IMG/VR virus record: IMGVR_UViG_3300025141_006434
Span: 1 to 31,440 of that record
Length of the DNA stretch: 31,440 bases
Source: a virus
Reading direction: 5' to 3' (one strand)
A program made the position numbers and the translations under genes. Numbering within the stretch: the first letter of the stretch is position 1; each line of letters starts with the position of its first letter. The notes under the pieces were generated by a model. It saw only the letters and a program-made list of their open reading frames with translations. It did not search any database and was not told the DNA's origin. Below, in pieces: positions 613-29,162 of this stretch.

Positions 613-620
613 CTATTATA
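613..620 (+). promoter_or_regulatory. CTATTATA promoter-like element before the helicase gene
   Basis: CTATTATA is followed by four bases (AGGT) and then the ATG at 625. Read as a -10 element (TATTAT), it would start transcription at or next to the ATG and give a leaderless mRNA. The same arrangement precedes the genes at 13479, 22330 and 23853. No -35 hexamer is apparent. The role as a promoter is inferred from this recurrence. Confidence 0.5.
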
Positions 621-3016: not shown

Positions 3017-3024
3017 CTATTATA
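3017..3024 (+). promoter_or_regulatory. CTATTATA promoter-like element upstream of the ssDNA-binding protein gene
   Basis: CTATTATA lies just after a terminator and 40 bp before the ATG at 3065, so this message would have a short leader. The leader contains GGGAATTTTCCC, a small dyad, but no strong Shine-Dalgarno. gp32-type proteins often repress their own translation by binding the leader; that is knowledge of the family and has not been shown for this gene. Confidence 0.5.
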
Positions 3025-7551: not shown

Positions 7552-8332
7552 TTTAGAATTTAATAAGTTTAGAAATATGCTGGAAGAGGAGAGGAATTTT
7601 GCGTTTACTAGATTTTCAGACGGAGAATTGTTCATTATGCAAAATAAGGAGGTGGAGTTGGCAGAGCAACACTTCGTAACAGGGGATATTACAGGACACG
7701 GCATTTATCCCCCTGAAGAGCAAAAACATTTTATCCCGGAGGAGCACCAGTTTTATAGAAATAAGCTGATTGAAGCGTTTCAGTTTCAACATAAGAATTA
7801 TTTCGTGGGGCTCAGTGGGAGAAAGGATGTTGGAGATGAAGCGTTTGAGTGGCAGCTGGCTCTACGAGGGTCCAAGGATGAGGCCAACCTAACGTTCGCT
7901 AACGTGTTTATTAATAACAACTACCGAAGGTATCTTAGAGAGATTCTTCCTCTGATTGATAACCGGGAGATTCTTATGATTGTTAATAAGGGGGCTGACC
8001 TGGGAAATTTACCTTTTCACTGTAAAGAGGCTTTTCGTATAGGGTCCAACTGTATGATTGATGATTATGACATGGTAGACAAGGTTAAAGATTTCATTGA
8101 ATATGAGGGGATTGAGAATCATATTATTTTGTGTGGGGCAGCGTCTCTAAGCAATTATATTATACACCAGTGTTTTGAGGCGAATCCTCGCAACACGTTT
8201 CTTGATATAGGAAGCACTTTAAATCCTCTTATGGGTCCAGAGATGGAGGGGTGGAAGCACACTAGAGGGTATTTGACGCATTACTGGTTGGACAGTGGCA
8301 GCCCCTACGGTACACAGATTGATGAGTGGTAA
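7538..8332 (+). CDS. GT-D fold (DUF1792-like) glycosyltransferase
   Basis: The 264-residue product carries FTRFSDGELFIM at about 24-35. RFSDGE matches the DxE metal/nucleotide-binding signature of the GT-D fold glycosyltransferases (DUF1792), first described in streptococcal serine-rich-repeat adhesin glycosylation. The C-terminal segment, with HIILCGAASLSNYII and then TFLDIGSTLNPL, resembles the second half of that fold, where a Gly-rich strand is followed by a D-I-G motif. GGAG lies seven bases before the ATG. Overlap with both neighbours places it inside the glycan operon. Its likely job is a single hexose addition; the donor is unknown. Confidence 0.6.
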   Translation: MKTFDLEFNKFRNMLEEERNFAFTRFSDGELFIMQNKEVELAEQHFVTGDITGHGIYPPEEQKHFIPEEHQFYRNKLIEAFQFQHKNYFVGLSGRKDVGDEAFEWQLALRGSKDEANLTFANVFINNNYRRYLREILPLIDNREILMIVNKGADLGNLPFHCKEAFRIGSNCMIDDYDMVDKVKDFIEYEGIENHIILCGAASLSNYIIHQCFEANPRNTFLDIGSTLNPLMGPEMEGWKHTRGYLTHYWLDSGSPYGTQIDEW

Positions 8333-8720
8333 ATTTTTTCCTTTGATAAAATTTGAGAAAAATTCTTTGATTTGGTGGGAGGAAATACGTAAGTTGAGGA
8401 ATCTGGAGGAAGTTCAGTCTGGGTTTATAACCTCTGCCGAAATCTCTAGGCAGGAACAAGAGGAGTATATGAGAGAGCACGAGGATAAATTTTTTGTTGC
8501 TACTTACAATAATTCTTTTGTTGGCTATATTGGTGTTATAGAGGATGATATTAGATTTTGTGTACATCCAAGTTGTCAAGGAAAAGGTGTGGGGACATTC
8601 CTGCTGATGAATATTTTAAAATATTTCCCAAATGCGGAAGGACGGGTAAAAAAATCTAATTTTGCTAGCATTAAGTGCTTTAACAATAGTGGAGTACCTT
8701 ACACTCTAATCGATGACTAA
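8322..8720 (+). CDS. GNAT family N-acetyltransferase
   Basis: The start is taken at ATG 8322 (MSGKFF), overlapping the previous stop; an in-frame GTG at 8295 would add nine residues. The 132-residue product ends in a GNAT core: the strands FFVATYNNSFVGYIGVI, DIRFCVHPSCQGKGVGTFLL with the acetyl-CoA-binding Q-x-G-x-G-x-G loop, then a helix and the closing strands. It would move an acetyl group from acetyl-CoA to an amine. The next gene encodes a sugar-aminotransferase family protein, so the natural guess is acetylation of an amino sugar, as WecD does. Peptide or small-molecule substrates are not excluded. Confidence 0.75.
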   Translation: MSGKFFPLIKFEKNSLIWWEEIRKLRNLEEVQSGFITSAEISRQEQEEYMREHEDKFFVATYNNSFVGYIGVIEDDIRFCVHPSCQGKGVGTFLLMNILKYFPNAEGRVKKSNFASIKCFNNSGVPYTLIDD

Positions 8721-9336
8721 GAAAATTTTGCATAACCCATACTCCGTTGTTCGGATGTTTGAAGAAGAAGTTGCGGCATATACCGGAGCTCCTTACGCTG
8801 TCTCTGTAGACAGCTGTACTAACGCGCTTTTTCTTGGTTGTAAGTATTTGGGCGTTGAGGATGTTAACATTCCAAAGCATACTTACCTTTCTGTGCCTAT
8901 GTCCATCATACACGCGGGAGGAAACGTTATTTTCGATGATAGAGAGTGGTCTGGAGCCTATCAGTTGGAACCGTACCCAATTTGGGATGCTGCTAAACGG
9001 CTAACTTCTAACATGTACAAACCAGGGACATTTATGTGTCTTTCGTTTCATATTAAGAAGACGTTAGCCATTGGGAAAGGTGGTATGATTCTTACTGATA
9101 ATTTAGAAGCTGTTGAGTGGTTTAAGAAGGCGCGATACGAAGGGCGTAGTGAGAAAAGTTATCATGAAGATGAGATTGATATGCTTGGCTGGAATATGTA
9201 CATGACCCCACAACAAGCATCCCATGGATTAGCTCTGATGCAAAACTATCCAGAGCACGTAGAAGATTTGGGTGAAAACAATGGATACAAAGATTTGAGT
9301 AATCTCCCGGTTTTTAAGGAGTGTAAAATAAAATGA
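8713..9336 (+). CDS. Shortened DegT/DnrJ/EryC1/StrS-family aminotransferase-like protein
   Basis: PLP-dependent enzymes of this family aminate keto-sugars on nucleotide carriers. The 207-residue product keeps the core landmarks: VSVDSCTNALFLG (phosphate-binding loop), IPKHTYLSVPMSIIHAGG, and SFHIKKTLAIGKGGMILTDN, where a Lys of the HIKK pair is the expected PLP Schiff-base residue. MTPQQASHGLAL, which begins the C-terminal domain, is followed by a stop. Family members are normally 360-400 residues, so most of the small domain is absent. Only ~50 bp separate it from the next gene, so there is no frameshifted remainder. Whether the short form is active is unknown. It lies directly after a GNAT gene. 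Confidence 0.75.
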   Translation: MTKKILHNPYSVVRMFEEEVAAYTGAPYAVSVDSCTNALFLGCKYLGVEDVNIPKHTYLSVPMSIIHAGGNVIFDDREWSGAYQLEPYPIWDAAKRLTSNMYKPGTFMCLSFHIKKTLAIGKGGMILTDNLEAVEWFKKARYEGRSEKSYHEDEIDMLGWNMYMTPQQASHGLALMQNYPEHVEDLGENNGYKDLSNLPVFKECKIK

Positions 9337-9387
9337 ATGAACTAACTGGAACATGGCCACAGTACAAGTAATTTTTATAGCAAAGAA

Positions 9388-10197
9388 ATGAAAATAGCAG
9401 TATGTTTGCACGGATATTTCAATAACCGAATTGACCCTCAAGCTGGGGATAACGGTTTTGAATACATCAAAGAGAATATCGTTAAAGATAACGAGGTTGA
9501 TTTCTTTATTCATAGTTGGGAGCCTGAGATGGAATCCCATATTAAAGGTTTGTATAACCCAGTCTCAGCTACATTTGAATCTCAGATAGATTTTAGTGAT
9601 AAGGTTAATGATGCTTATTTCGATGAAGGCTTTCAAAGAGAATCAACGATGTATGCTAACTGTAAACCACACAACACTCTCAGTTTTTTATACTCACGTG
9701 CTAAGTCCATAGAGCTGATGAAAAGTAACGGTGAGTATGATTGTGTCGTTGTCTGCAGGTTTGATTTAGGTCAGCGAGGAAAAGAGTGTGCGCACATGTT
9801 TAAGTATAACGTGGCTGAAATAAGGTTTGATGAGGATGCGGATATGAGTAAATTGCACAGTTCTATGTGGGACCAATTAAATGCTGGGTACGCCGACCAA
9901 TGGTTCTACTCCAGCCAGGAGAATATAGAAATGTTAGCAACCGCTTACGATAAAGCTTTAGACTATTTAACTCCTGGAAGTGAGTATGAAAAAGCTCTTA
10001 CCGAAGGTTGGCCTGATAGCCAGCATTTTAATGTTCATTCTCCCACAGACCCAAGGCAGTTTACCAATGAATTTTTTAAATCTAATAAATCTAGTAAGTT
10101 GATGACTTACCCTAAGTGGCGATGCGTTGATAATCATTTGTTTTATAAGTGGTTTTGTATCGACACTGGACTTTATGAAGTCTCGGAGTTTGTATAA
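9388..10197 (+). CDS. Putative glycosyltransferase-like protein (unassigned family)
   Basis: The 269-residue product opens with a short strand and a Gly turn (MKIAVCLHGYFNNR). In the middle it has LYSRAKSIELMKSNGEYDCVVVCRFDLG, in which a helix leads into a strand ending in R-F-D; this pattern recurs in sugar-transferase-like proteins of phages and large DNA viruses, where the acidic residue plays the DxD role. No signal peptide or membrane span is present. The ATG at 9388 follows a 51-bp gap containing TTTTTATAGCAAAGAA, and the stop overlaps the next gene (TAATG). Assignment rests on the weak motif and operon context. Confidence 0.5.
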   Translation: MKIAVCLHGYFNNRIDPQAGDNGFEYIKENIVKDNEVDFFIHSWEPEMESHIKGLYNPVSATFESQIDFSDKVNDAYFDEGFQRESTMYANCKPHNTLSFLYSRAKSIELMKSNGEYDCVVVCRFDLGQRGKECAHMFKYNVAEIRFDEDADMSKLHSSMWDQLNAGYADQWFYSSQENIEMLATAYDKALDYLTPGSEYEKALTEGWPDSQHFNVHSPTDPRQFTNEFFKSNKSSKLMTYPKWRCVDNHLFYKWFCIDTGLYEVSEFV

Positions 10198-10925
10198 TGA
10201 AAGGAATAGGATTTGTAATGTATTCCCACTCAGATTATTCTGACGTGTGGGAAATCTTTTTTAGGCAGACAGAAAAATACCTCCCTGAGGGCTGTACTAA
10301 GTATATCATAACGGATAAGGAACTTGATATAATCCCTGAAGATTATGAAGTTCTCCTCTACGATGATAGTCTCCCATACCAAAAAAGAATTGGAAACGCT
10401 CTTATGCATGTAGAGGAAGAGCTCTGTATCTTTCAGCATGAGGATATGTTTTTGTACGGCAAGGTTGATGAGAAGAAAATACTAGATTACGCTAGTGTTC
10501 TTATGGGTGGTACCTCTGATTTAGATTTTATTAAATTGATTAAAGGTGGAGAGTACAGAGATATTCCAAAGCTTCCTCACACTGACCTTTTTCATATCCC
10601 ATATGATTCCGAGTATGTTTTTGCTATTCAGCCCACGCTGTGGAAGACTCCTAAGTTGATAGAAATTTATCAGGCATGTGAAGGTGATAGTATTTGGGAT
10701 TTTGAGGTTAAAGGGTCTCAGTGGTGTAGGGACAGACAAATTGTTGGCGCATACTCTTACCGAGGTGAACCTCAACGAGGCTCTATGCATTGGGATTCTA
10801 AAACATTTCCTTATGTTGCTACTGCTATTGTTAAAGGTAAGTGGAATCTAGCAGAATATAAACGAGAGCTTGGAATGATTCTTAGTTCCTATAAAGTTGA
10901 TTTAAGTGTGAGAGGTACATGTTGA
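10197..10925 (+). CDS. Putative glycosyltransferase-like protein
   Basis: This 242-residue cytoplasmic protein begins with a strand and ser/asp-rich turn (GIGFVMYSHSDYSDVW). It has TKYIITDKEL, and then a region ending in ELCIFQHEDMFLYG (about 76-89), in which an acidic pair follows a hydrophobic strand as in GT-A DxD sites. Trp/Tyr-rich segments such as WDFEVKGSQW follow. It starts one base inside the previous stop with GGAG eight bases upstream, and its end overlaps the PPK2 gene by 7 bp. No family can be named with certainty; a sugar transferase is the best guess from context. Confidence 0.45.
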   Translation: MKGIGFVMYSHSDYSDVWEIFFRQTEKYLPEGCTKYIITDKELDIIPEDYEVLLYDDSLPYQKRIGNALMHVEEELCIFQHEDMFLYGKVDEKKILDYASVLMGGTSDLDFIKLIKGGEYRDIPKLPHTDLFHIPYDSEYVFAIQPTLWKTPKLIEIYQACEGDSIWDFEVKGSQWCRDRQIVGAYSYRGEPQRGSMHWDSKTFPYVATAIVKGKWNLAEYKRELGMILSSYKVDLSVRGTC

Positions 10926-11770
10926 ATGTGGACCCCATCACCTTTAATCTGCCTGAGTACGAGGACTTGTCGGGTAAGAAGTACAGAAAGGAAAAGTATA
11001 GGCTTCAGGTAGAATTATTAAAGCTGCAGGAGCATGTTTTAAAAACCAAGACTAGAGTACTTATAATTTTTGAGGGGAGAGATGCTGCAGGAAAAGGCTC
11101 TACCATTAAAAGATTTGTAGAGCACCTCATGCCTAAAGCCACTAATGTGGTGGAACTCGGTATTCCCACCCCACAACAAAGTAAGAATTGGTTTAAAACT
11201 TGGGAAAAAAAGATTCCCAAGTACGGGGACATTACATTTTTCGACAGGAGCTGGTACTCCAGGGCTGTTATCCAACCAGTAATGGGATACTGTTCAGATG
11301 CTCAGTATAAGTACTTTATAAACAAGGTTAATTTATGGGAGAAGTCCTTGTGTGAAGATGGAAAGACTATGATTGTAAAATTCTATCTGTCTATCTCCCC
11401 CGAAAGGCAACTGGAAAGACTAAAATCTAGAGCTAATGACCGTTTGAAGTATTGGAAGTTGTCCTCTAACGATTGGAAAGCATTTAAGAAATTAAAACTA
11501 ATTTCTTCTTACACGGCTAGAATGTTTAAAAAAACTTCAACGCAGTGGGCACCTTGGGTAGTGATTAATAGTGATAATCGCCAGATTGCACGTCTTAATG
11601 CTATGAGATATTTACTAAGTACGATGGATTACAGCGGCAAGAAAGAACTTAAGAAGAAAAAATGGACGAACCCAGTTTCTGAGTCTATTATTATAGAGGG
11701 GATTACTTTCGATGGTTTGTCTGATGAGCAGTATAATTTACTCTACGATTTGAAACATAAAGGGGGTTAA
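10919..11770 (+). CDS. ppk2: Polyphosphate kinase 2 (PPK2 family)
   Basis: PPK2 enzymes move phosphate between polyphosphate and nucleotides. Most bacterial members use polyP to phosphorylate NDP or NMP. The 283-residue product shows Walker A GRDAAGKG (53-60, inside FEGRDAAGKGSTIKRF), Walker B FFDRSWYSRAVIQPVMG (107-123) and the lid segment RLKSRANDRLKYWKLSSNDW (167-186), with the conserved K-x-W-K-L-S. Length equals single-domain PPK2s. It lies between glycosyltransferase and sugar-phosphate enzyme genes, so regenerating nucleotides for nucleotide-sugar synthesis or for DNA precursors is plausible. Subclass and direction cannot be read by eye. The family call is very secure. Confidence 0.92.
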   Translation: MLNVDPITFNLPEYEDLSGKKYRKEKYRLQVELLKLQEHVLKTKTRVLIIFEGRDAAGKGSTIKRFVEHLMPKATNVVELGIPTPQQSKNWFKTWEKKIPKYGDITFFDRSWYSRAVIQPVMGYCSDAQYKYFINKVNLWEKSLCEDGKTMIVKFYLSISPERQLERLKSRANDRLKYWKLSSNDWKAFKKLKLISSYTARMFKKTSTQWAPWVVINSDNRQIARLNAMRYLLSTMDYSGKKELKKKKWTNPVSESIIIEGITFDGLSDEQYNLLYDLKHKGG

Positions 11771-11776
11771 TGTGCA

Positions 11777-12391
11777 ATGAATACAAAATTAGTTCTATTT
11801 GATTTAGATGGTGTTTTGGTAAACGCTTGCGACTGGCATTATGAAGCTTTAAACTTAGCTTTAAAAGAGATTGCTGGAACTGAGATTAATCGCAAAGAGC
11901 ATGAAGAAACTTTCAATGGTTTACCGACGTTAACGAAGTTGGACCAACTTATAAAATTAGGTCGTGTGAATGCTTCTGATAAGAATAAAATCTCTGAACG
12001 AAAGCAGGAACTCACTAGAGATGTTCTTGTAGAAAGGTGTAAGTTGGACCCCGAAAAAATGCGAGTTATGTCTTGGCTTAAGGACAGGAATGTAACTACT
12101 ATGTGCGTGACCAACAGTATTAGAGATTCAGCAGAAATCATGCTTGTTAAGTCTGGTATCAGGGAGTTTTTGTCGGGAGTTGTTAGTAATGAAGACATTG
12201 CAAACCCAAAGCCTAATTCGGAAGGGTACGTTACCGCTATGGCACGTGCGGGAGTTATTCCTAGGGATACTGTTATAGTTGAGGACTCTCCAAAAGGTAT
12301 CCAAGCTGCTTCCGGCTTGGGTGCGACCGTCATTGAAGTGGGTAACGCTGATGACGTCACTGTAGAACTTATGAGAGATAGAATAAAATGA
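11777..12391 (+). CDS. HAD-superfamily hydrolase, beta-phosphoglucomutase-like
   Basis: The 204-residue product has the four HAD motifs: FDLDGVL (8-14) with the nucleophile Asp and the acid/base Asp, CVTNS, a Lys in NPKPNSEGY, and VEDSPKGIQAA. A helical cap sits between motifs I and II, as in the beta-phosphoglucomutase/phosphatase branch. It probably dephosphorylates or isomerises a sugar phosphate. The next gene is a sugar nucleotidyltransferase (4-bp ATGA overlap) and the one after is a GDPD-like protein, which suggests one small pathway. GGGGG lies ten bases before the ATG. Confidence 0.85.
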   Translation: MNTKLVLFDLDGVLVNACDWHYEALNLALKEIAGTEINRKEHEETFNGLPTLTKLDQLIKLGRVNASDKNKISERKQELTRDVLVERCKLDPEKMRVMSWLKDRNVTTMCVTNSIRDSAEIMLVKSGIREFLSGVVSNEDIANPKPNSEGYVTAMARAGVIPRDTVIVEDSPKGIQAASGLGATVIEVGNADDVTVELMRDRIK

Positions 12392-13083
12392 CTGTATTAA
12401 TTCCAATGGCGGGAGCAGGTTCCCGATTTGAAAAAGCTGGCTACACATTTCCAAAGCCTTTAATCGAGGTCGAGGGTAAACCTATGATTCAGGTAGTTGT
12501 AGATAACCTCAATCTTAAGAATCAAAAGCATGTGTACATTGTGCAAAAAGAACACTATGACCGATTTGCGTTAAATTATTTGCTTCCACTAATCACTCCC
12601 GATTGTGAGATTGTTCAAGTGGAGAATGTTACGGAGGGCGCGGCTTGTACTACGTTATTAGCTAAAGAACACATCAATAATGATGAACCTCTAATTATAG
12701 CCAACTCTGACCAGTTTGTGGAGTGGGGTATTAGTGTTCCAGACGGAGTCCCATTTGATGCAGCAATATACACTTTTAAAGCTACTCACCCAAAATGGAG
12801 TTTCGCTAAGGTGGGTGATAATGGGTATGTAGAAGAGGTTGCTGAAAAGAAGCCTATTAGTAATACTGCTACTGTAGGTGTATACTACTGGAAGAAAGGT
12901 TCCGACTATGTTCGTTTTGCTGAACAAATGATTGAGAAGGATGTTCGGGTTAACAATGAGTTTTATGTGTGTCCCGTATTCAATGAAGCTATTGGGGCTG
13001 GTAAAAAAGTTATTACGGTGGACGTTAATAGAATGTGGGGTATGGGAACTCCTGAAGATTTGAAAGTATTCCTAGACCGATGA
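12388..13083 (+). CDS. Sugar nucleotidyltransferase (NTP_transferase family)
   Basis: The 231-residue protein starts with the nucleotide-binding signature MTVLIPMAGAGSRFEKAGY followed by FPKPLIEVEGKPMI, in which the Lys of PKP would contact the nucleotide phosphate. NSDQF near 111-115 supplies the metal-binding Asp, and the end, MWGMGTPEDLKVFLDR, is typical of the sugar-1-phosphate nucleotidyltransferase core without a C-terminal acyltransferase domain. It would activate a sugar-1-phosphate or polyol phosphate as an NDP derivative. It overlaps the HAD gene and the GDPD gene by 4 bp each, so the three are probably translated as a unit. The specific sugar and nucleotide are not determined. Confidence 0.85.
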   Translation: MTVLIPMAGAGSRFEKAGYTFPKPLIEVEGKPMIQVVVDNLNLKNQKHVYIVQKEHYDRFALNYLLPLITPDCEIVQVENVTEGAACTTLLAKEHINNDEPLIIANSDQFVEWGISVPDGVPFDAAIYTFKATHPKWSFAKVGDNGYVEEVAEKKPISNTATVGVYYWKKGSDYVRFAEQMIEKDVRVNNEFYVCPVFNEAIGAGKKVITVDVNRMWGMGTPEDLKVFLDR

Positions 13084-13475
13084 TTAAGATTGCTCACAGG
13101 GGTAATACAAAAGGGAAAACTGACCGAGAGAATAGTCCTACTTACATACAAGAGTCTTTGCAGCTAGGTTTTGATGTGGAAGTTGACGCTTGGTATGTGG
13201 AGGAATCAGACTCGTATTTTTTAGGTCATGATGCTCCACAGTTTCAAGTTGATTTAGATTTTTTAATGGCCGAAGGGCTGTGGGTTCATTGTAAACATTT
13301 AAAGTGCTTCCAGTCTCTCCTGAAAGTTCCTGAGATAAACTGCTTCATGCACGATGAGGAGTCCTGGAAGAACGGAACTCCCGCAGTTACATCTCATCAA
13401 TACCTCTGGAGTTATCCGGAAGTTTACACTTTCGATGGAAAGATTTATGGAATATGTGGGGACGCACTATTATAG
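13080..13475 (+). CDS. Short glycerophosphodiester phosphodiesterase-like (GDPD) protein
   Basis: The 131-residue product has the opening IAHRGNTKG with catalytic H6-R7, E17 in RENSP, FDVEVDAW with E34 and D36, and LGHDAP with H50. These are the GDPD metal and catalytic positions. Classical GDPDs are ~250 residues, so this is a compact form covering roughly the first half of the TIM barrel. Similar mini-GDPDs are known from phages and giant viruses next to nucleotidyltransferases. It may act on a phosphodiester-linked sugar or polyol rather than on lipid. It ends three bases before the recombinase ATG and contains that gene's CTATTATA element. Confidence 0.7.
   Translation: MIKIAHRGNTKGKTDRENSPTYIQESLQLGFDVEVDAWYVEESDSYFLGHDAPQFQVDLDFLMAEGLWVHCKHLKCFQSLLKVPEINCFMHDEESWKNGTPAVTSHQYLWSYPEVYTFDGKIYGICGDALL
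13467..13474 (+). promoter_or_regulatory. CTATTATA promoter-like element before the recombinase gene
   Basis: CTATTATA, four bases (GGTT), then ATG at 13479: the same spacing as at 613, 22318 and 23841. The element overlaps the last codons and stop of the GDPD gene, so an internal leaderless promoter would let the recombinase be expressed independently of the glycan operon. Promoter function is inferred. Confidence 0.5.
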
Positions 13476-18255: not shown

Positions 18256-18263
18256 CTATTATA
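18256..18263 (+). promoter_or_regulatory. CTATTATA promoter-like element before rmlA
   Basis: CTATTATA lies 22 bp after the terminator and 15 bases before the ATG at 18279. The intervening sequence contains AGGA nine bases from the ATG, so this transcript would have a short leader with a Shine-Dalgarno, unlike the leaderless cases. Confidence 0.5.
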
Positions 18264-18278
18264 CATCGTAGGAAAACT

Positions 18279-19007
18279 ATGAAAGGTATTATTCTCGCTG
18301 GAGGTCTTGGAACACGATTAAGACCATTAACTTACGCTACAAATAAACACTTGCTTCCTGTTTATGACGAGCCAATGGTGTATTATCCAATTTCCACCTT
18401 GGTAAACGCAGGTGTTAAAGACATTCTTATTGTTACTGGAGGGCAACACGCTGGAGACTTTATAAAAGTGTTGCGTAATGGTGAAGACTTTGGACTTTCA
18501 GGATTAAATTACGCTTACCAGGAAGGAGAAGGAGGTATTGCTGATGCGCTGGCTATGGCGGAAAGTTTTGTGGGGGATGATTCATGCGTCGTTGTTCTTG
18601 GGGACAACATTATTGCTGACGACATTACGAATGTGGTTCATGGTTTTGGAGATGTGGGAGGGGCTTCTATTTTTACTAAAGAAGTTACTGACCCCGAAAG
18701 GTTCGGAGTAGTAGATTATGGTGAAACTGGATTGGGGGATATTGAAGATATTATTGAAAAGCCTGAGTTTCCCCCGTCCAACGATGCGGTTATTGGATTG
18801 TATATGTATGATAACACGGTTTTCAATCGCATCCGCAACTTGAAACCCTCAACTAGAGGAGAATTAGAAGTTACAGATTTGAATAGAAGTTACCTTCAAG
18901 ATGGTTTGCTTTCTGTTCATAAAATACATGGAACTTGGTTAGACTGCGGAACGCCCAAGGCTTTAGCAGAGGCAACTCGTATTATGTTAGAAGATGAAGA
19001 AGCATAA
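18279..19007 (+). CDS. rmlA: Glucose-1-phosphate thymidylyltransferase (short form)
   Basis: The enzyme joins dTTP and glucose-1-phosphate to give dTDP-glucose, the first step to dTDP-rhamnose and dTDP-amino sugars. The 242-residue product has the nucleotide-binding signature LAGGLGTRLRPLTY (6-19) and NKHLLPVYDEPMVYYPI with the conserved Lys. It also has YQEGEGGIADAL, VVLGDNII with the metal-binding Asp, FGVVDYG, EKPEFPPSNDAVIGLYMYD and GTWLDCGTP. It belongs to the ~240-residue form without the C-terminal extension of E. coli RmlA (~290). It overlaps rmlB by 14 bp and follows a CTATTATA element. Confidence 0.93.
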   Translation: MKGIILAGGLGTRLRPLTYATNKHLLPVYDEPMVYYPISTLVNAGVKDILIVTGGQHAGDFIKVLRNGEDFGLSGLNYAYQEGEGGIADALAMAESFVGDDSCVVVLGDNIIADDITNVVHGFGDVGGASIFTKEVTDPERFGVVDYGETGLGDIEDIIEKPEFPPSNDAVIGLYMYDNTVFNRIRNLKPSTRGELEVTDLNRSYLQDGLLSVHKIHGTWLDCGTPKALAEATRIMLEDEEA

Positions 19008-19965
19008 AGAAAAAATTGTTATCACAGGGGGTTATGGATTCATTGGCTCTCGTTTTGTTAAGTGGGTATATGAAAATACTGACTTTGAAATCTTGGTTAT
19101 AGACAAGATAACCTACGCTGGGGATTATACTCGCATTGCTGATAATATCAAATGTGATGATACACGGTTTAAGTTCTTGAAAAAGGATATTTGTGATGTT
19201 ACAACTAGAGATGTTCGCAGGGCAAAGTATATTGTAAATTTCGCCGCTGAGAGTCATGTAGATAACTCTATTTCTAATGGAAGACCTTTCATGAGAAGTA
19301 ATGTGGAAGGAGTCTTCAACCTGTTAGAAGCGGTTAGAAGTGTTCCAGAACTCACCAAGTTTATACAAATTTCTACTGACGAAGTTTATGGGGACATGAA
19401 AGATTATAGAGAGGGTAATCACCGAGCAAATGAATCTTATCCTTTGAAGCCTAGTTCTTATTATTCTGCTTCAAAAGCCTCTGCGGATATGCTGGTCATG
19501 TCCTGTGCCAGGACTTTTGGGATAAACTATGTCATCACGAGAAGTTGTAATAACTTTGGTGAGGGACAACACCCTGAAAAGTTTTTACCTAAGATGTTTT
19601 CTAATATTGAAAATGGTTTACCTGTTCCTATCTATGGGGATGGTGGACAACTTCGTGAGTGGATACACACAGATGATAACTGTGAAATAATTGGAGAACT
19701 TATGCTTTCTGCGGCAAAAAATGAGGTTTACAATATAGGCTCTGGGTATCACTATAAGAATATCAAGGTCGTAGATTATGTTGGCAAAATCTTAGAAAAA
19801 GATGTTGAGTATAACCATGTTGAAGACAGGTTAGGACATGATAGAGAGTATAATCTTGATTGTGGTAAAGTAGAGAAGTTCTTGGGGGAGAAGGTTTTTC
19901 TTTCCCTCGAAGGATTCCTAAAAGATGAAGTTAATAGGCTCAAGGATACTGCTGACGGGAGGTAG
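18994..19965 (+). CDS. rmlB: dTDP-glucose 4,6-dehydratase
   Basis: The enzyme converts dTDP-glucose to dTDP-4-keto-6-deoxyglucose using bound NAD+. The 323-residue short-chain dehydrogenase-fold protein has the dinucleotide loop GGYGFIGSRF (12-21), FAAESHVDNSI (83-93), the dehydratase-specific T128-D129-E130 in STDEVYGD and the catalytic Y157-SAS-K161. TRSCNNFGEGQHPEKFLPK, which shapes the sugar pocket, and the distal REWIHTDDN follow. Length is close to bacterial RmlB (~350). It overlaps rmlA and rmlD, so the three are translated together. The intermediate could go to rhamnose (RmlC/D) or to amino sugars (DegT). Confidence 0.94.
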   Translation: MKKHKEKIVITGGYGFIGSRFVKWVYENTDFEILVIDKITYAGDYTRIADNIKCDDTRFKFLKKDICDVTTRDVRRAKYIVNFAAESHVDNSISNGRPFMRSNVEGVFNLLEAVRSVPELTKFIQISTDEVYGDMKDYREGNHRANESYPLKPSSYYSASKASADMLVMSCARTFGINYVITRSCNNFGEGQHPEKFLPKMFSNIENGLPVPIYGDGGQLREWIHTDDNCEIIGELMLSAAKNEVYNIGSGYHYKNIKVVDYVGKILEKDVEYNHVEDRLGHDREYNLDCGKVEKFLGEKVFLSLEGFLKDEVNRLKDTADGR

Positions 19966-20614
19966 TGGTCGTTTAGGTAAACACCTAATACCGTTAATAG
20001 CAAATATGGAAGGCGTTGAGCTGTCTACTCCTTCCTCAAAAGATTTGGATGTTCGGTCAAACGAGTATCCAAATTGGCTTATGGCTTGGCATCCCCAAGT
20101 AATAATCCATGCTGGAGCGTATACAAATGTTCCCGCTGCGAATACTGAGCCAGAAAGAAACTTGGTTCACGAGATTAACACCGTTGGGGCAAAAAACATT
20201 AGGGATTATGCTAACACGGTTGGGGCAAAAGTAGTTTATATTTCTACTGACTATGCTGAAAATCCTGATGAGAAAAATTGGTATACTACTACCAAACTCG
20301 CTGGTGAGAAATACGGACACATGGTTATTCGCACATCTTTCAAAGATAGAGGAACCTGGGGAGAAAATGCCTTAAAGAAGGTATTTCATCCAGTCTACAC
20401 AAATGCTGATTGGACAGATGTTATCGCAGCAAAAATTGTGGCTGCCATAGAAAAGTTTGATACGGGTATTATCCGTGTTGGGACAGAACCAAAAACACTT
20501 TTGGACTTGGCTAGTCAGGAATATCCAGAAGTTGAATCTATACCTGTTGAGGAGGCTGATAAGTTATTAGGCTATGATTATCCTAGAGATTGTAGGATGA
20601 ATCTGTCTATATAA
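19925..20614 (+). CDS. rmlD: dTDP-4-dehydrorhamnose reductase (RmlD-like, short)
   Basis: RmlD makes dTDP-L-rhamnose by NAD(P)H-dependent reduction. The 229-residue product has GGSGRLGKHL (12-21), HAGAYTNVPAAN (62-73, matching the conserved N-A-A-A-Y-T segment), STDY (107-110) and the catalytic Y120-TTT-K124. A sugar-pocket part (RTSFKDRGTWG) and a short C-terminal end follow. Typical RmlD is ~290 residues, so the substrate domain is trimmed. It overlaps rmlB by 41 bp. With rmlA, rmlB and the RmlC-like cupin at 14431 the window encodes a complete set for dTDP-rhamnose. Confidence 0.85.
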   Translation: MKLIGSRILLTGGSGRLGKHLIPLIANMEGVELSTPSSKDLDVRSNEYPNWLMAWHPQVIIHAGAYTNVPAANTEPERNLVHEINTVGAKNIRDYANTVGAKVVYISTDYAENPDEKNWYTTTKLAGEKYGHMVIRTSFKDRGTWGENALKKVFHPVYTNADWTDVIAAKIVAAIEKFDTGIIRVGTEPKTLLDLASQEYPEVESIPVEEADKLLGYDYPRDCRMNLSI

Positions 20615-22317: not shown

Positions 22318-22325
22318 CTATTATA
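22318..22325 (+). promoter_or_regulatory. CTATTATA promoter-like element before the glutamine synthetase gene
   Basis: CTATTATA, four bases (TGGC), then ATG at 22330. It lies in the 14-bp gap after the fibre gene. The spacing is identical to that at 613, 13467 and 23841, and there is no Shine-Dalgarno between it and the ATG. Confidence 0.5.
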
Positions 22326-22329
22326 TGGC

Positions 22330-23340
22330 ATGACAGTTTGTGCTGAATATGTATGGTTAGATGGAACTGATGGTATGCCTCAGTTGAGAAGCAAAACGAA
22401 AGTTATTGCTGGTGAAGTTAAAGAGTTTCCTGTGTGGAGTTTTGATGGTGGAAGCACTAATCAAGGCACTCTAAAAGATTCGGATAGGGTTCTGGTTCCT
22501 GTAAGGTCATATAAAGACCCATTTCGGGGGGAACAGGGATTTATCATTCTATGTGAAGTTTGTGATGTAAAGCGAAAAAAACTTGTGCCACATAAGACGA
22601 ACACTAGAAAAGCATTAGATACGAAAATGGCTAGTGATTGGCATAAAGAGGAACCTTGGTTTGGGTTTGAGCAGGAGTATACCTTTATGAACCTTCACAC
22701 AGGCAACCCTGTTGCGTGGAGGGGGGAGAAACCACCCAAGCCACAAGGAGATTACTACTGTGGTGTTGGTGCTGATAATGCGATTGGTAGAAATATTGCT
22801 GAAGAGCATCTAAACCGCTGTTTGTTTGCTGGTGTTGAATTGGCAGGAATTAACGCTGAGGTTATGGCAGGTCAATGGGAATTTCAAATAGGAGCTTGCG
22901 ACCCTCTTAAAGCCTGTGATGATTTATGGATGTCTAGGTATATTCTTGGTCGGGTAGTTGAGAGAAATGGTATTGGAGTTTCTTACAGTCCTAAGCCAGC
23001 AAAAGGAGATTGGAATGGTGCTGGTTGCCACACTAACTTTTCCACTAGGGGTATGAGAGCGGATTATGGGGACATTATGGATGCTGTTGATTCATTAAGT
23101 AATTCGCATAAGAAATTTATTGAAGTGTGCGGAGAAGGCACGGAAGACCGTCTGACGGGAGACTGTGAAACTTCTGACATGAAAACTTTTTCTCATGGAG
23201 TCTCTGATAGAGGGGCAAGTGTTCGTATCCCTTGGCAAGTTCAGAAGGACAAAAAAGGTTATTTGGAAGACCGTAGACCAAGTGCCAATATAGACCCTTA
23301 TAAAGTTTGCTTTGAAATGTTAGATACTGTTATAGGCTAA
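22330..23340 (+). CDS. glnII: Glutamine synthetase, type II (GSII, eukaryote/GlnII-type)
   Basis: The enzyme makes glutamine from glutamate, ammonia and ATP. The 336-residue protein has the GSII signatures in order: WSFDGGST (36-43), VPVRSYKDPFRG (56-67), FGFEQEY with metal-binding Glu residues (111-117), NAEVMAGQWEFQIG (175-188), the ATP-binding NGAGCHTNFS (229-238), RGASVRIP with the substrate Arg (294-301) and EDRRPSANIDPY (313-324). Length fits GSII (~350), not GSI (~470) or GSIII (~700). No regulatory insertion or adenylylation Tyr loop is seen. It follows virion genes and precedes a tRNA. Glutamine supply for nucleotide and amino-sugar synthesis is a likely benefit to the phage. Confidence 0.94.
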   Translation: MTVCAEYVWLDGTDGMPQLRSKTKVIAGEVKEFPVWSFDGGSTNQGTLKDSDRVLVPVRSYKDPFRGEQGFIILCEVCDVKRKKLVPHKTNTRKALDTKMASDWHKEEPWFGFEQEYTFMNLHTGNPVAWRGEKPPKPQGDYYCGVGADNAIGRNIAEEHLNRCLFAGVELAGINAEVMAGQWEFQIGACDPLKACDDLWMSRYILGRVVERNGIGVSYSPKPAKGDWNGAGCHTNFSTRGMRADYGDIMDAVDSLSNSHKKFIEVCGEGTEDRLTGDCETSDMKTFSHGVSDRGASVRIPWQVQKDKKGYLEDRRPSANIDPYKVCFEMLDTVIG

Positions 23341-23343
23341 TTG

Positions 23344-23417
23344 GGGGGTGTAACTCAGTTGGTAAGAGTGGAGGTCTTATATGCCTCTGGTCGTAGGTTC
23401 AAGTCCTGCCACCCCTA
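23344..23417 (+). tRNA. tRNA-Ile, anticodon UAU (TAT)
   Basis: A 74-nt cloverleaf can be drawn: acceptor GGGGGTG with CACCCCT (one G-U), D stem ACTC/GAGT with loop AGTTGGTAA, anticodon stem GAGGT/GCCTC with loop CTTATAT, variable loop TGGTC, T stem GTAGG/CCTGC with loop TTCAAGT, discriminator A. U33 precedes the anticodon TAT, which reads AUA. The next bases are CCG, so the CCA end must be added by an enzyme. Most bacteria read AUA with a lysidine-modified CAU tRNA, so a UAU isoacceptor is unusual. AUA is frequent in this window. Confidence 0.9.
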
Positions 23418-23425
23418 CCGCATAA

Positions 23426-23840: not shown

Positions 23841-23848
23841 CTATTATA
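23841..23848 (+). promoter_or_regulatory. CTATTATA promoter-like element before the zinc-ribbon miniprotein
   Basis: CTATTATA, four bases (GGTC), then GTG at 23853. It is the fourth exact instance of the leaderless-type spacing, and here it points to a GTG start that would otherwise be missed. Confidence 0.5.
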
Positions 23849-24250: not shown

Positions 24251-24327
24251 GTGGGTGTAGTTCAGTTGGATAGAACAACGGACTTCTAATCCGTAGGTCG
24301 AGGGTTCAAGCCCTTCCGCCCACACCA
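24251..24327 (+). tRNA. tRNA-Arg, anticodon UCU (TCT)
   Basis: A 77-nt cloverleaf includes an encoded CCA: acceptor GTGGGTG/CGCCCAC (one U-G), D stem GTTC/GAAC with loop AGTTGGATA, anticodon stem ACGGA/TCCGT with loop CTTCTAA, variable loop AGGTC, T stem GAGGG/CCTTC (one G-U-type pair) with loop TTCAAGC, discriminator A, then CCA. The anticodon TCT reads AGA, a codon common in this window and rare in many hosts. tRNA-Arg(UCU) is among the most frequent phage tRNAs. Confidence 0.95.
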
Positions 24328-24806: not shown

Positions 24807-24835
24807 TTGACTTGTGTTTTGATTTCTGGTATAAT
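24807..24835 (+). promoter_or_regulatory. Near-consensus sigma70 promoter of the early-type operon
   Basis: TTGACT (24807-24812), a 17-bp spacer, and a perfect TATAAT (24830-24835) with an upstream TGG that makes an extended -10. This is the best host-type promoter in the window and should be active without phage proteins. Confidence 0.9.
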
Positions 24836-24903: not shown

Positions 24904-25725
24904 ATGTTTGTTATTGACGAAACTAAAAAAGCCATGCTACAAACCCTGGTCGAGTCAGGTAAAAACTGTCTCGTAACAGGTGCGACTGGTGCTGGTAAAA
25001 CTACTCTCTGTTTCCATCTCGCTGAGGAGATGGGAATGACTCCTGTTGTTATCAACTGTGGAGGAACACAAGATGCTCGTTCTTCCCTGTTTGGATATTT
25101 CTCATTAAAAGATGGGAATACCCTGTTTGAGAAAGCAGATTTCCTAAAAGCACTTTCTACACCCAACACACTCATTATTCTTGATGAGTTGAGTCGGGCT
25201 TCTGATGATGCTTATAATCTCCTTTTCCCTATCTTGGATTTCCGTAGAGATGTTCGTGTGGATGAGTTAGAGGGAGATGATAAGGTTATTTCCATTGACC
25301 CCTCAGTAAGATTCATTGCTACTGCCAACATTGGTATCGAGTATTCTTCTACTAGAAGTATTGACCGAGCTTTACAGGATAGATTCATTTCTTTTAATCT
25401 CCCTTACCTGGCTGGTAAAGATTTGAAAAAGTATATTCGTTCTATTCACGGTTCTGAGGTGGCAAAGGAGTCTGGCACTCTGCTGAAACTTTATGATTAT
25501 TCTCATAAGATGTTTGGTCAGGGTAAGATTTCTACTCGCATCTCTACAAGAGCGGTTTTGGATGTTATCCCCCTCACTACTAAATTTAAGTTGGGTGAGG
25601 TATTGGATTATGTTGTCCTTTCTATTTTTGAACAGGACAGTAGCAGTATTGTAAATGATGCGAATATTCTTCGTGAGTTTGCTGATTCACTTGGAGTTTA
25701 TGCCAAAACTGAAGAAAATGGATAA
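24904..25725 (+). CDS. AAA+ ATPase, MoxR/CobS-like
   Basis: The 273-residue product is a MoxR-branch AAA+ ATPase, a class that remodels partner complexes with VWA-domain proteins. Walker A is GATGAGKTT (26-34) and Walker B LIILDELSRAS (90-100), with the inserted strand region DARSSLFGYFSLKDG after alpha-2 as in CobS/MoxR. Sensor 1 is ATANIG (139-144), and the Arg finger lies in DRALQDRF (154-161). The next genes encode a metallopeptidase-like protein and a VWA protein, matching the usual partners. CobS-like genes are known in marine myoviruses. It is the first gene after the sigma70 promoter. Confidence 0.85.
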   Translation: MFVIDETKKAMLQTLVESGKNCLVTGATGAGKTTLCFHLAEEMGMTPVVINCGGTQDARSSLFGYFSLKDGNTLFEKADFLKALSTPNTLIILDELSRASDDAYNLLFPILDFRRDVRVDELEGDDKVISIDPSVRFIATANIGIEYSSTRSIDRALQDRFISFNLPYLAGKDLKKYIRSIHGSEVAKESGTLLKLYDYSHKMFGQGKISTRISTRAVLDVIPLTTKFKLGEVLDYVVLSIFEQDSSSIVNDANILREFADSLGVYAKTEENG

Positions 25726-26950
25726 TAACGAGTTTCAACTGGACGATAGCGTTCCTGTCGATGCTGAGTTGATGGAGGCATGGTTGGGTGGGCATAAAAT
25801 TTCTTTATGCTCCAAAACCTTACACGACATCAAAAAACTCATTGAGCATTACAAGGATATTATTACCCCTACTGAGAATGTTGTGGTAGAGTTTCCTACG
25901 GACGAAAACATGACTCCGTGTGCCTCGGTTGATAAAAAAGTAGTCTACATTCCAACTTCATTGCTTGAGGCAGGGGAAGTAGATGATACTATTGGGGCGA
26001 TGATTCACGAACTTAGGCATATTGAAATGTCTGATAGTGAGCGTCAAACATGGGCAACTTGTTTTGGGACTGTGCGTAAGGCATTGGATACTCTTTTTAT
26101 TAAGAGGGACGATGGTGGATACGAGAGTATTCACGATATTATTTTTGGAAGTGGAGACATTTCTTTTAATGATATGATGGATACGACGGTAGTAAAACCT
26201 AATGTTGCGTTTTTGCGTCAGGCGTGTAAAGATGTTGCTTTTCTCCTTAACGCTGTTGAGGATGTCCGTATCGACTCTCTTACCCAACCCAACTTGAAAA
26301 AGTATATCACTAAAGGTGATGAAAAAGCATGGGTGGATTTTGAGAAGGAGTATAATAGAGGCACACTCAGCGAGGATACTCTTTTGAATCTCTGTTACCG
26401 TTTGTTGTTTCACCACAAAGGATTCTTATCCGATAATACTATTGAAAAGATGTTTGGGGATACTAGCTTCATATTAAGAAGTGAACCTTCTGACTATACT
26501 CCAGTAGTGTTAAAGGAATTTTCTGATGTTATCCGAACTCATTTGGAAGATATGTGGAAGAATTTTCCTGAACATGAGAAACAACTTATGCTAACTGATT
26601 CCGATGACCCCACCGAGTTATATGTAAATGGTCTTAAAACTGATTCTGAATCCGTTGAAGGGCAAATAATTGACGGTAACTTGAGGATTAAGGGCAGAGT
26701 TGGTATGGATACTAATGCTCTTGAGTGGGAAGATAAAGAAGTTGGACGGACTGTAACTGCGCCATTAAAAGAACAAGGGGGGCAGATTCTCCGAGGTCTT
26801 TGTGATAATAGAAAAAAGCCCAAGATTGTGAACCAGTCCTTAAAGAATGAGATTGACGCTTACGATAACATTCAAATCTACTACACCGAAGAAGATTTCG
26901 GTCGTAATAAAAAAACAGAATACGGTTGCGTAGTTTACGATGCCGTCTAA
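25718..26950 (+). CDS. Metallopeptidase-like protein of the CobT/DUF2201_N type
   Basis: The start is taken at ATG 25718, in the recurrent junction GAAGAAAATG; ATG 25700 and earlier starts lie inside the preceding gene. In the 410-residue product IGAMIHELRHIEMSD places H97-E98-x-x-H101, an HExxH zinc site. LLNAVEDVRIDSL (E181) resembles the E-D-x-R-[IV] helix that supplies the third ligand in the putative metallopeptidase domain found N-terminal to VWA domains (DUF2201_N) and in CobT. The rest is charged with no membrane span. Here peptidase-like and VWA parts are separate proteins, the VWA being two genes downstream. Confidence 0.75.
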   Translation: MDNNEFQLDDSVPVDAELMEAWLGGHKISLCSKTLHDIKKLIEHYKDIITPTENVVVEFPTDENMTPCASVDKKVVYIPTSLLEAGEVDDTIGAMIHELRHIEMSDSERQTWATCFGTVRKALDTLFIKRDDGGYESIHDIIFGSGDISFNDMMDTTVVKPNVAFLRQACKDVAFLLNAVEDVRIDSLTQPNLKKYITKGDEKAWVDFEKEYNRGTLSEDTLLNLCYRLLFHHKGFLSDNTIEKMFGDTSFILRSEPSDYTPVVLKEFSDVIRTHLEDMWKNFPEHEKQLMLTDSDDPTELYVNGLKTDSESVEGQIIDGNLRIKGRVGMDTNALEWEDKEVGRTVTAPLKEQGGQILRGLCDNRKKPKIVNQSLKNEIDAYDNIQIYYTEEDFGRNKKTEYGCVVYDAV

Positions 26951-27707
26951 CCCGAACATAGTAATAATAAACAGAGTAATAAAACAGAAAATGACTTTTA
27001 ATCATAAAAAAATTGACCACCCCTTAGTTAATATGGACAAAATGCCCAAAGAAGCATTAGCACAGATTACTGAGGAATCTTTAGAATCCTTCTCGGAAAT
27101 GTGGGATGAGTATCACACACTTCAGAAAGAAGATGTTACAACTGCTATGGATATTGCTAATCGTATAAATGATGATTGTAAAACTTTATTTGGTTCGTAT
27201 AGCAAACAGCATAAGTATATGGAGCGCAACTTGCGCGGGCGGGAAGATGTAGTTTCTATTCATGGAGGGACTATTCCTAGTAAGGAAGCCGTAACCAATG
27301 CGGTAACCGAAGCAAAAAAGAGTGTTGATATTACCAACCTTCACGCTGGTAATACTGGTGGGAGTGTTGATGATATTACTATGGAACAACAAAATAAGGC
27401 TATTGCTTTCTTGTTGTCGAATAAATATGTTTTTGGCATAGACTTTACTGCGTATAACGCACATGAGATTGCTGTATCCCTAGCCTTTGATAAGGCAATC
27501 CAGTTAGGTGATGATATTGAATTTGAAAGGGAAGCTACCCCATCCTTCTCCGAGTGTGAGGGGTGTGAAACGAAAAAGATTTCCTTTGTGCCTAAAGATT
27601 ATCTTCAAAATAAGACAATTACCTGTTCTTGTTGTTGCCTTCAATATAACGCAAAACTCGTGTTTGATGGTTCATCCGTAAAAGTAATGATTTCTGGTGG
27701 AGAGTGA
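26940..27707 (+). CDS. Unknown protein with C-terminal zinc-ribbon, in the CobS/CobT-like cassette
   Basis: The 255-residue product overlaps the metallopeptidase gene by 11 bp and the VWA gene by 1 bp. ATG 26991 is an alternative start. The body is helical and charged (MPKEALAQITEESLESFSEMWDEYHTLQKED and on), then comes a hydrophobic patch (AIAFLLSNKYVFGIDF). The C-terminus carries CEGC and, 27-30 residues on, CSCCC, a four-Cys zinc-ribbon layout with strands between. No family is recognised. Its place between metallopeptidase-like and VWA genes suggests it is a structural or adaptor subunit of the same complex. Confidence 0.65.
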   Translation: MPSNPNIVIINRVIKQKMTFNHKKIDHPLVNMDKMPKEALAQITEESLESFSEMWDEYHTLQKEDVTTAMDIANRINDDCKTLFGSYSKQHKYMERNLRGREDVVSIHGGTIPSKEAVTNAVTEAKKSVDITNLHAGNTGGSVDDITMEQQNKAIAFLLSNKYVFGIDFTAYNAHEIAVSLAFDKAIQLGDDIEFEREATPSFSECEGCETKKISFVPKDYLQNKTITCSCCCLQYNAKLVFDGSSVKVMISGGE

Positions 27708-28612
27708 TGATGGGGAATAAGTATTCTTTCTCCGTAGAGGAGATGTTCAGTCGAGAAGAAGATTCAGAGTTACTTGCGTATAGGGACGATTTGTTTAATA
27801 AGTTTAATCGCAACATGAGGCTTCTTATGGAAAGTAAGAAGCCTCGCAAGCAACACTCCCATAAGGGTAGGTTAGATACTCGTAAGGTATACCAATACCC
27901 TTTTAACGATTCTATCTTTCAAAAATCTCTAAGCCAACCTACTTCTAACACCACAGTTATTATGCTTATTGACGGTAGTGGTAGTATGGAGGCTAGGGGC
28001 GGTTATAATAGCAAGTTTACCCGAATGGATGTGTGTAATGCTGTTTGCTCTGCTTTCGCTAAGTCTGTTAAGACTGTTATCAACGATGAGTTGAAAGTTG
28101 AGGTATTCGTGAAATCTAGCCCCTCTCTTTATTCGGAGGGTGGGGCTGTAAAAGGTGATTTTGTAACCTTGACCAGAGTTTTCTCAAATGTTAAAGCACA
28201 GTCCGTGTCCAAATACGATAGACTACTGAATCTCAAACCTGTTTCTCCAGTAAAAGTTGGAAGCCATTGTGTTGGAAGTTATACTTCTGAGTTTTCTGTG
28301 CTTCCTGGTTTGTTTAGGTGGATGCGTAAAAACATTACAACTAAGAATACTGTCTTTTTCAACCTAACAGATGGGGAGGCATATGCTTCTTTAGGCACGA
28401 ATGGAACCAAATTTCTTAATGCTGATAATGCTTACATGAGGACAAAATATCTTCGTGGTGAGAATGAGATGACCATGATTATTGGAGAACCAGAATCTCA
28501 CCGTAAGTCGTGGGTTCCTGTGTATGGAGATAACTTGGTCATGGCTGAGGGTAATTTTGAAGCGGATATGTTCCGTGTGTTAATGAAACTAATGGATACA
28601 AGTTATGAATAA
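27707..28612 (+). CDS. VWA-domain protein, CobT-like
   Basis: The 301-residue product has the metal-ion-dependent adhesion site VIMLIDGSGSM (84-94), with D89, S91 and S93. After ~130 residues VFFNLTDGEAY follows as the third MIDAS Asp motif (T-D-G). An N-terminal basic helix and KGRLDTRKVYQYPFND precede it, a lead-in like that of CobT VWA domains. VWA proteins with MoxR/CobS ATPases form metal-chelatase or protein-maturation complexes. GGAG lies four bases before ATG 27707 and seven before ATG 27710; either may be used. It overlaps its neighbours. Confidence 0.82.
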   Translation: MMGNKYSFSVEEMFSREEDSELLAYRDDLFNKFNRNMRLLMESKKPRKQHSHKGRLDTRKVYQYPFNDSIFQKSLSQPTSNTTVIMLIDGSGSMEARGGYNSKFTRMDVCNAVCSAFAKSVKTVINDELKVEVFVKSSPSLYSEGGAVKGDFVTLTRVFSNVKAQSVSKYDRLLNLKPVSPVKVGSHCVGSYTSEFSVLPGLFRWMRKNITTKNTVFFNLTDGEAYASLGTNGTKFLNADNAYMRTKYLRGENEMTMIIGEPESHRKSWVPVYGDNLVMAEGNFEADMFRVLMKLMDTSYE

Positions 28613-29162
28613 TCAAGAGTGGGAAACCGTTAGAAAAAAATATGGGAAGTTGATGTATATGATTTGCCATAGAATCGGTGGGGATAAAGTTACTAATGAT
28701 ATTGAAGATTCTTACCAGGAGTTGTGTATTTCTGCTATGGATGCCGTTCGCACTTTCTCTAAGAAAAGTGGTAGAGAGTTTGGAGACTACTTCTCCACAA
28801 TAGAGTTTGATAAATACATTAAGACTTGCCTATGGAATAAAAAGAATAGTCTTGGTATCAAAATCCAAAAGAAAAAGCCTATAAACAATACCATGAGTTT
28901 TGTCCCCGAACTTGTTAGTGAGGAGGAGACTTATGAAGGAAGTGGAATCCCCGTAGATGTTAGTGGTTTCGCTGATGTAGAGTTAGATGAGGAGAGCCGC
29001 CTCATTGTAGAAAAGATTTTACAAGACGGAAAGATAATAAAGCCAAATGGTAAAATCAACATAAATCGCCTAGTCCGTGAGACAGGCAAATCCAAGCCAA
29101 GAATCAAATACTTAATCGAAAGATTAGAACACTTTTACCAGGATTACGAAGAAAATGAGTAA
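28605..29162 (+). CDS. Sigma-factor-like transcription protein
   Basis: The 185-residue product resembles a sigma70-family factor reduced to region 2 and a C-terminal HTH. At about 13-80, YGKLMYMICHRIGG, DIEDSYQELCISAMDAVRTFSKKSG and EFDKYIKTCLWNKKNS follow the region 2.1-2.4 plan (the D-L-x-Q-E-G core-binding helix, then the aromatic/basic -10-recognition helix). At 151-176 INRLVRETGKSKPRIKYLIERL is a plausible helix-turn-helix. The length matches T4 gp55 (185), but similarity to gp55 is only general. It would bind host RNA polymerase core. The operon is under a sigma70 promoter, and CTATTATA elements are candidate targets. Confidence 0.6.
   Translation: MNNQEWETVRKKYGKLMYMICHRIGGDKVTNDIEDSYQELCISAMDAVRTFSKKSGREFGDYFSTIEFDKYIKTCLWNKKNSLGIKIQKKKPINNTMSFVPELVSEEETYEGSGIPVDVSGFADVELDEESRLIVEKILQDGKIIKPNGKININRLVRETGKSKPRIKYLIERLEHFYQDYEENE

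Follow-up and report, generated by a model that had tools for sequence, protein, structure and literature searches.

A sigma-like protein from a host-promoter operon as candidate reader of a leaderless -10 box in an uncultured lineage of the T4 superfamily

Phage sigma cascades, gp55 and leaderless -10 promoters are each already known, separately. The sigma factor gp55 of phage T4 requires only a -10-like element, and in SPO1 the host sigma factor is followed by gp28 for middle and then by gp33/34 for late transcription. Gene 45 is core to the T4 family (PMC2988020). Cyanomyoviruses have neither motA nor asiA, and their transcription is believed to rely instead on early and late promoters that overlap (PMC2984593). 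In bacteria, leaderless promoters are generally marked by a -10 hexamer (TANNNT) ∼11-12 bp upstream of the start codon (PMC3160421).

The window, that is, the whole stretch of DNA analyzed, is a 31,440-base IMG/VR virus record (Table 1). It encodes P0001, whose open reading frame of 185 amino acids contains both motifs quoted in a preliminary description of this DNA (EDSYQEL at residues 34-40 and EFDKYIKTCLW at 67-77). Residues 11-66 match the Pfam Sigma70_r2 profile (26.4 bits against a cut-off (GA) of 24, E 6e-6), as do 25 of 50 relatives, which bears out the sigma-like protein with a region-2-like core that the description had proposed. An AlphaFold2 model calculated from the 50-sequence alignment contains confident helices at residues 3-24, 33-55 and 66-83 and a C-terminal helical domain (129-184), with a disordered linker between the domains (pLDDT 82.6, pTM 0.46). 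Sigma chains account for nearly all of the top 30 Foldseek matches of this model in the PDB, the best having an E of 0.11 and none falling below 0.001, and the best viral match in BFVD is a Bacillus phage Bobb sigma factor (probability 1.00, E 0.017). The flexible connection between the two domains, reflected in the pTM, keeps whole-model TM-scores low. P0001 is thus very probably a sigma factor.

The description had also assigned a C-terminal helix-turn-helix to the protein. A helical domain is modeled at this position, and it looks like a winged helix, not like sigma region 4. Its best superposition is with Lrp/AsnC-type winged helices (7fby, 2.0 Å over 50 columns), and Pfam returns a weak HTH_24 match (E 0.056). 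No Pfam match to Sigma70_r4 (region 4, the -35-binding helix-turn-helix) was found in P0001 or its relatives; region 4 is also absent from gp55-type sigmas, so its absence narrows the subtype of P0001 and excludes no sigma. Comparison of the P0001 family with gp55 of HTVC008M gave an hhalign probability of 0.4, i.e. no detectable profile similarity.

Searches with P0001 alone (tblastn against INPHARED, a peptide-pattern scan, phmmer against the PDB) returned no homologue, and P0001 together with two diverged relatives matched no INPHARED phage, so that synteny via cobS and uvsX was needed to reach relatives. Synteny and then a profile located 90 IMG/VR loci with P0001 relatives; twenty records were analyzed, in large part or whole. 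The family is uncultured and mostly marine. Its members encode T4-type gp17, gp18, gp20, gp21 and gp23 (phmmer E 1e-20 or better) and also gp13, uvsW, gp46/47 and gp32, with gp32 and UvsX/RecA present in the window, and by this gene content the lineage is a member of the T4 superfamily. The DNA polymerase is of family A (PolA) in 10 of 10 relatives tested and of family B (PolB) in 0 of 10. No gp45 clamp was found in 10 records with relatives using PF02916, a model that finds HTVC008M itself weakly (E 0.002), and phmmer with gp45 queries gave no match among the relatives. G001-G005 and G013-G017 combine T4-type virion genes with a DNA polymerase of family A, and neither gp43 nor gp45 could be detected in them. 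One P0001 relative lies in a record labeled Prochlorococcus sp. AG-409-P03 (QCKN01000003.1; 130,604 bases, a single-cell genome), so a cyanobacterium may be the host of at least one family member, or the two may simply have been sorted together.

The gene for P0001 follows directly on that of a VWA/CobT-like protein, which has a CobT-like homologue in HTVC008M (E 7e-5). The operon had been described as starting at a host-type sigma70 promoter, and this we confirm: the element upstream of cobS, with its TG before the -10, is the best sigma70 match of the region, and a counterpart (TTGA(C/T)-N16-18-TATAAT, at most 250 nt before cobS) is found in 13 of 16 loci of relatives. The conserved form is TTGAC-N17-TGGTATAAT. 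We infer that P0001 is expressed early, from this promoter.

Table 1. Features of the window; M and late-type boxes are described in the text.
Feature	Position	Strand	Remarks
M box CTATTATA	613..620	+	4 nt before ATG 625, DnaB-like helicase
M box CTATTATA	3017..3024	+	40 nt before gp32-like SSB gene (3065)
M box CTATTATA	13467..13474	+	4 nt before ATG 13479, uvsX (UvsX/RecA)
M box CTATTATA	18256..18263	+	15 nt before rmlA-like nucleotidyltransferase gene (18279)
M box CTATTATA	22318..22325	+	4 nt before ATG 22330, glutamine synthetase
Candidate late-type box CTATATAA	23426..23433	+	4 nt before ATG 23438 (118-aa ORF); single site, weak
M box CTATTATA	23841..23848	+	4 nt before GTG 23853, 56-aa ORF
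Operon promoter, host sigma70-type	24807..24835	+	TTGACT-N17-TATAAT, extended -10 (TGG); 11/12 match
cobS-like AAA ATPase, operon gene 1	24904..25725	+	Pfam AAA_5, PHROG 249 CobS-like
Operon gene between cobS-like and VWA genes	25655..26950	+	Position, overlap; no Pfam/PHROG match
Operon gene	26940..27707	+	ORF, overlapping frames
VWA/CobT-like protein, directly 5' of sigma gene	27704..28612	+	PHROG 459, E 4e-9
P0001, sigma-like protein	28605..29162	+	Region-2 domain (3-83), disordered linker, C-terminal winged-helix domain (129-184)

By their translations, glycosyltransferase, nucleotidyltransferase, aminotransferase-like and sugar-dehydratase-like genes occupy 3855-13475 and 18279-20614 of the window (profiled for the gene at 18279). 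The phage glutamine synthetase-like gene extends over 22330-23340, and two tRNA genes, for Ile(TAT) and Arg(TCT), at 23344-23419 and 24251-24327 read A/T-rich codons.

CTATTATA, which had been proposed to mark replication, recombination and metabolic genes, occurs 9 times in the window where 1.4 occurrences are expected (0 of 100 shuffles reach 9), and CTATNATA-N4-RTG occurs 4 times where 0.16 are expected. It is one form of the M box CTATNATA, a conserved signal CTAT(N)ATA. Six of the nine copies lie on the coding strand, and the remaining three, intragenic and on the minus strand, look like chance. Among the relatives, whose loci are related to one another so that counts are not independent events, an M box is located 2-9 nt before the start of uvsX in 54 of 62 loci (42 at exactly 4 nt), of a gp55-like gene in 52 of 60 (38 at exactly 4 nt), of rmlA in 14 of 20 and of the helicase gene in 20 of 43, and it is found at 0 of 110 structural genes (gp13, gp17, gp18, gp20, gp21, gp23). 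The box is kept while the flanking sequence diverges, and its distances to the start codon show a sharp maximum of 26 sites at 4 nt, over a background of 2. A de novo EM motif search recovered the M box and an L-like motif (see below); EM motifs 1, 3 and 4 were set aside as low-complexity or coding signal in appearance. The association with replication, recombination and some metabolic genes is thus real and conserved. A conserved protein of 168-178 amino acids is also encoded behind an M box, in G005 (L090:5515-6021) and, judging by similar N-termini, in G001, G002, G008, G009 and G010; the G005 copy, near the gp55-like gene, is a PDDEXK_15 putative phage endonuclease.

The M box hexamer is a sigma70-like -10 (TATAAT or TATTAT), preceded by a conserved C at -13 and followed by a conserved A at -6; the flanking G is weakly conserved (0.46). 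No -35 element could be detected at 110 unique M sites (mean TTGACA match 2.75, against 2.49 in the control). Given the position of the box close to start codons and the lack of a -35, leaderless mRNAs are to be expected. In both G007 and G012, the box reads CTTTWATA (CTTTAATA/CTTTTATA) at 10 of 12 sites and has lost A-11, the base on which sigma70 depends most, and the early promoters of both records are still TATAAT. We considered CTTTAATA as a separate promoter class and rejected this, since it is the form that the M box takes in one lineage.

The best explanation for these boxes, and one that we regard as reasonably probable, is that P0001 reads CTATNATA. We infer this from the early placement of its gene, its co-occurrence with the box, the drift of the box away from the sigma70 -10 and a single box switch. 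Regarding co-occurrence, HTVC008M, which has gp55 and in which we found no P0001 relative, shows no excess of leaderless M boxes (2 of 58, compared with 88 of 521 in the family and 10 of 521 at a control distance). Regarding the switch, the P0001 tree joins G007 and G012 as sisters, which the uvsX tree does not, and the uvsX relatives of G007 and of G012 on contigs with other P0001 types retain the A box. Agreement of the switch with the sigma tree, and not with that of uvsX, is suggestive; with only one such event, it points to P0001 as the reader and is no proof. An apparent covariation of K86 with box position 3 (A to T) was dropped, as L153 combines N86 with an A box.

Because the M box holds a sigma70-like -10, host sigma70 could in principle read it as a leaderless -10, alone or with a phage activator, and P0001 would then act otherwise, either by binding core enzyme for host shut-off or at late genes. 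The presence of TATAAT or TATTAT inside the box speaks for this alternative, as does the fact that TANNNT ∼12 bp before the start is the bacterial leaderless signal (PMC3160421), but we consider it unlikely. Unlike the phage's own sigma70 promoters, M sites have neither a -35 nor an apparent TG extension, and the base preceding the early -10s is usually G or T where C precedes the M hexamer. Conservation of this C and of A at -6, and the loss of A-11 in one lineage that keeps TATAAT at its early promoters, are likewise difficult to reconcile with sigma70. Finally, the gene sets behind the two kinds of promoter are nearly exclusive: an early sigma70-type promoter is found at 0 of 186 uvsX, helicase, rmlA, ssb and gs loci, and an M box precedes cobS in 0 of 16.

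The genomes of P0001 relatives also encode a gp55-like protein of 115-136 amino acids. It aligns with HTVC008M gp55 at an hhalign probability of 83.6 (E 8e-6), and its structure as predicted by AlphaFold corresponds to T4 gp55 (7d7c_F; probability 1.00, TM 0.65/0.63, E 0.088); the match to the PHROG late sigma is weak. On the same profile comparison (0.4, against 83.6 for the short paralogue), P0001 itself is not a member of the T4 gp55 family. All records of at least ∼65 kb with a P0001 relative also contain the gp55-like gene; as a fragment, the window is too short to show one. Both sigma genes occur in the 130.6-kb relative G014/L153/L285, which corresponds to QCKN01000003.1. One in-frame stop (TGA, TAA or TAG) lies in the matched stretch of sigma genes of either family at G018:38380-38727, G016:52765-53118, G037:22617-23171 and G045:24470-24829 and may be the natural gene end.

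A second box, the L box CTA(A/T)ATAAT (CTATATAA/CTAAATAA), is located 3-9 nt before some structural genes and is distinct from the M box. The core structural genes that carry it are few, namely gp13 in G008, G009 and G010 and gp17 in G003, G004 and G011, and a few of the other genes behind L boxes are structural by annotation or position. Among the genes behind L boxes, an HNH endonuclease and a tail protein were the only ones to which PHROGs gave a name, and the main grounds for a late class are therefore gp13, gp17 and position. A search with the HTVC008M protein found no gp33 homologue.

The gp55-like factor might itself read both M and L boxes, with P0001 in an accessory role, as coactivator or anti-sigma. 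Each of the two boxes is a -10-like, A/T-rich element without a -35, and T4 gp55 likewise needs only a -10-like element. We judge this improbable to a greater degree than a reading by host sigma70. The gp55-like gene itself lies behind an M box, with a sigma70 promoter in only 2 of 60 cases, and so needs an earlier reader (the gp55 gene of HTVC008M is preceded by its own sigma70 promoter); moreover, M and L boxes serve different genes, and the M box is changed in G007 and G012 where their few L boxes are unchanged. It is very unlikely that CTATNATA is no promoter and serves, close to start codons, for repressor binding or processing: CTATWATAG is nearly palindromic in the sequences, but the palindrome is not maintained given the weakly conserved flanking G, it is lost in the variants CTATCATA, CTATGATA and CTTTAATA, and a distance of ∼11 bp from the start codon fits the -10 of leaderless genes.

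With P0001 as the preferred reader of the M box, the two-stage cascade of the preliminary description has to be extended. The cascade is probably three-stage with two phage sigmas, since in the relatives a second, gp55-like sigma gene lies behind a CTATNATA box and a different box, CTA(A/T)ATAAT, is found at some structural genes. Host RNA polymerase with sigma70 would transcribe the cobS operon first. P0001 would then bind the core enzyme and open CTATNATA promoters without a -35 contact, initiation at or adjoining the ATG yielding leaderless mRNAs. The gp55-like factor, as one product of these middle promoters, would switch the polymerase to CTA(A/T)ATAAT late promoters and thereby to the virion genes. 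The winged helix of P0001 may replace a coactivator or -35 contact, which is the weakest part of the proposal. In its full form, this model states that an early-made dedicated sigma has replaced sigma70-based middle control and drives leaderless CTATNATA mRNAs, including that of the gp55-type sigma, and that, with PolA and no gp45 found, late transcription proceeds without clamp-dependent activation; we see the chances of this broader statement as evenly balanced.

Among known systems, P0001 resembles T4 gp55, a phage sigma that reads TATAAATA promoters, in its small size, its region-2 core, the lack of a recognizable region 4 and promoters without a -35. It differs from gp55 by its C-terminal winged helix, its early operon and a box located on replication genes. 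The protein whose model fits T4 gp55 is the gp55-like paralogue, and TAAATA is common to the box presumed for this paralogue, CTAAATAAT, and the T4 late TATAAATA; T4 late transcription uses the gp45 clamp, whereas none was found in the P0001 relatives. T4 middle transcription (MotA/AsiA with sigma70) likewise serves uvsX, helicase and SSB genes, but what we propose here is a sigma-like protein in addition to sigma70, with a -10 box of its own. The order of host sigma, phage middle sigma and phage late factor follows the same logic as the SPO1-type cascade (gp28 middle, gp33/34 late), and the likeness is one of cascade logic in phages of unrelated lineages: the P0001 lineage has T4-type virion genes, -10-only leaderless promoters and a gp55-like late factor. 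The M box shares with bacterial leaderless genes a -10 hexamer ∼11-12 bp before the start codon (PMC3160421), and differs from their signal in having a conserved C ahead of the hexamer and a conserved A behind it, in tolerating the loss of A-11 and in being restricted to one gene class. The open-access literature searched contained no T4-superfamily lineage in which a dedicated middle sigma is combined with the lack of a detected gp45 clamp. If the proposal is true, two sigmas and leaderless mRNAs set the timing of gene expression in a widespread, uncultured branch of the T4 superfamily, and late transcription of the gp55 type does not require the replication clamp in every case.
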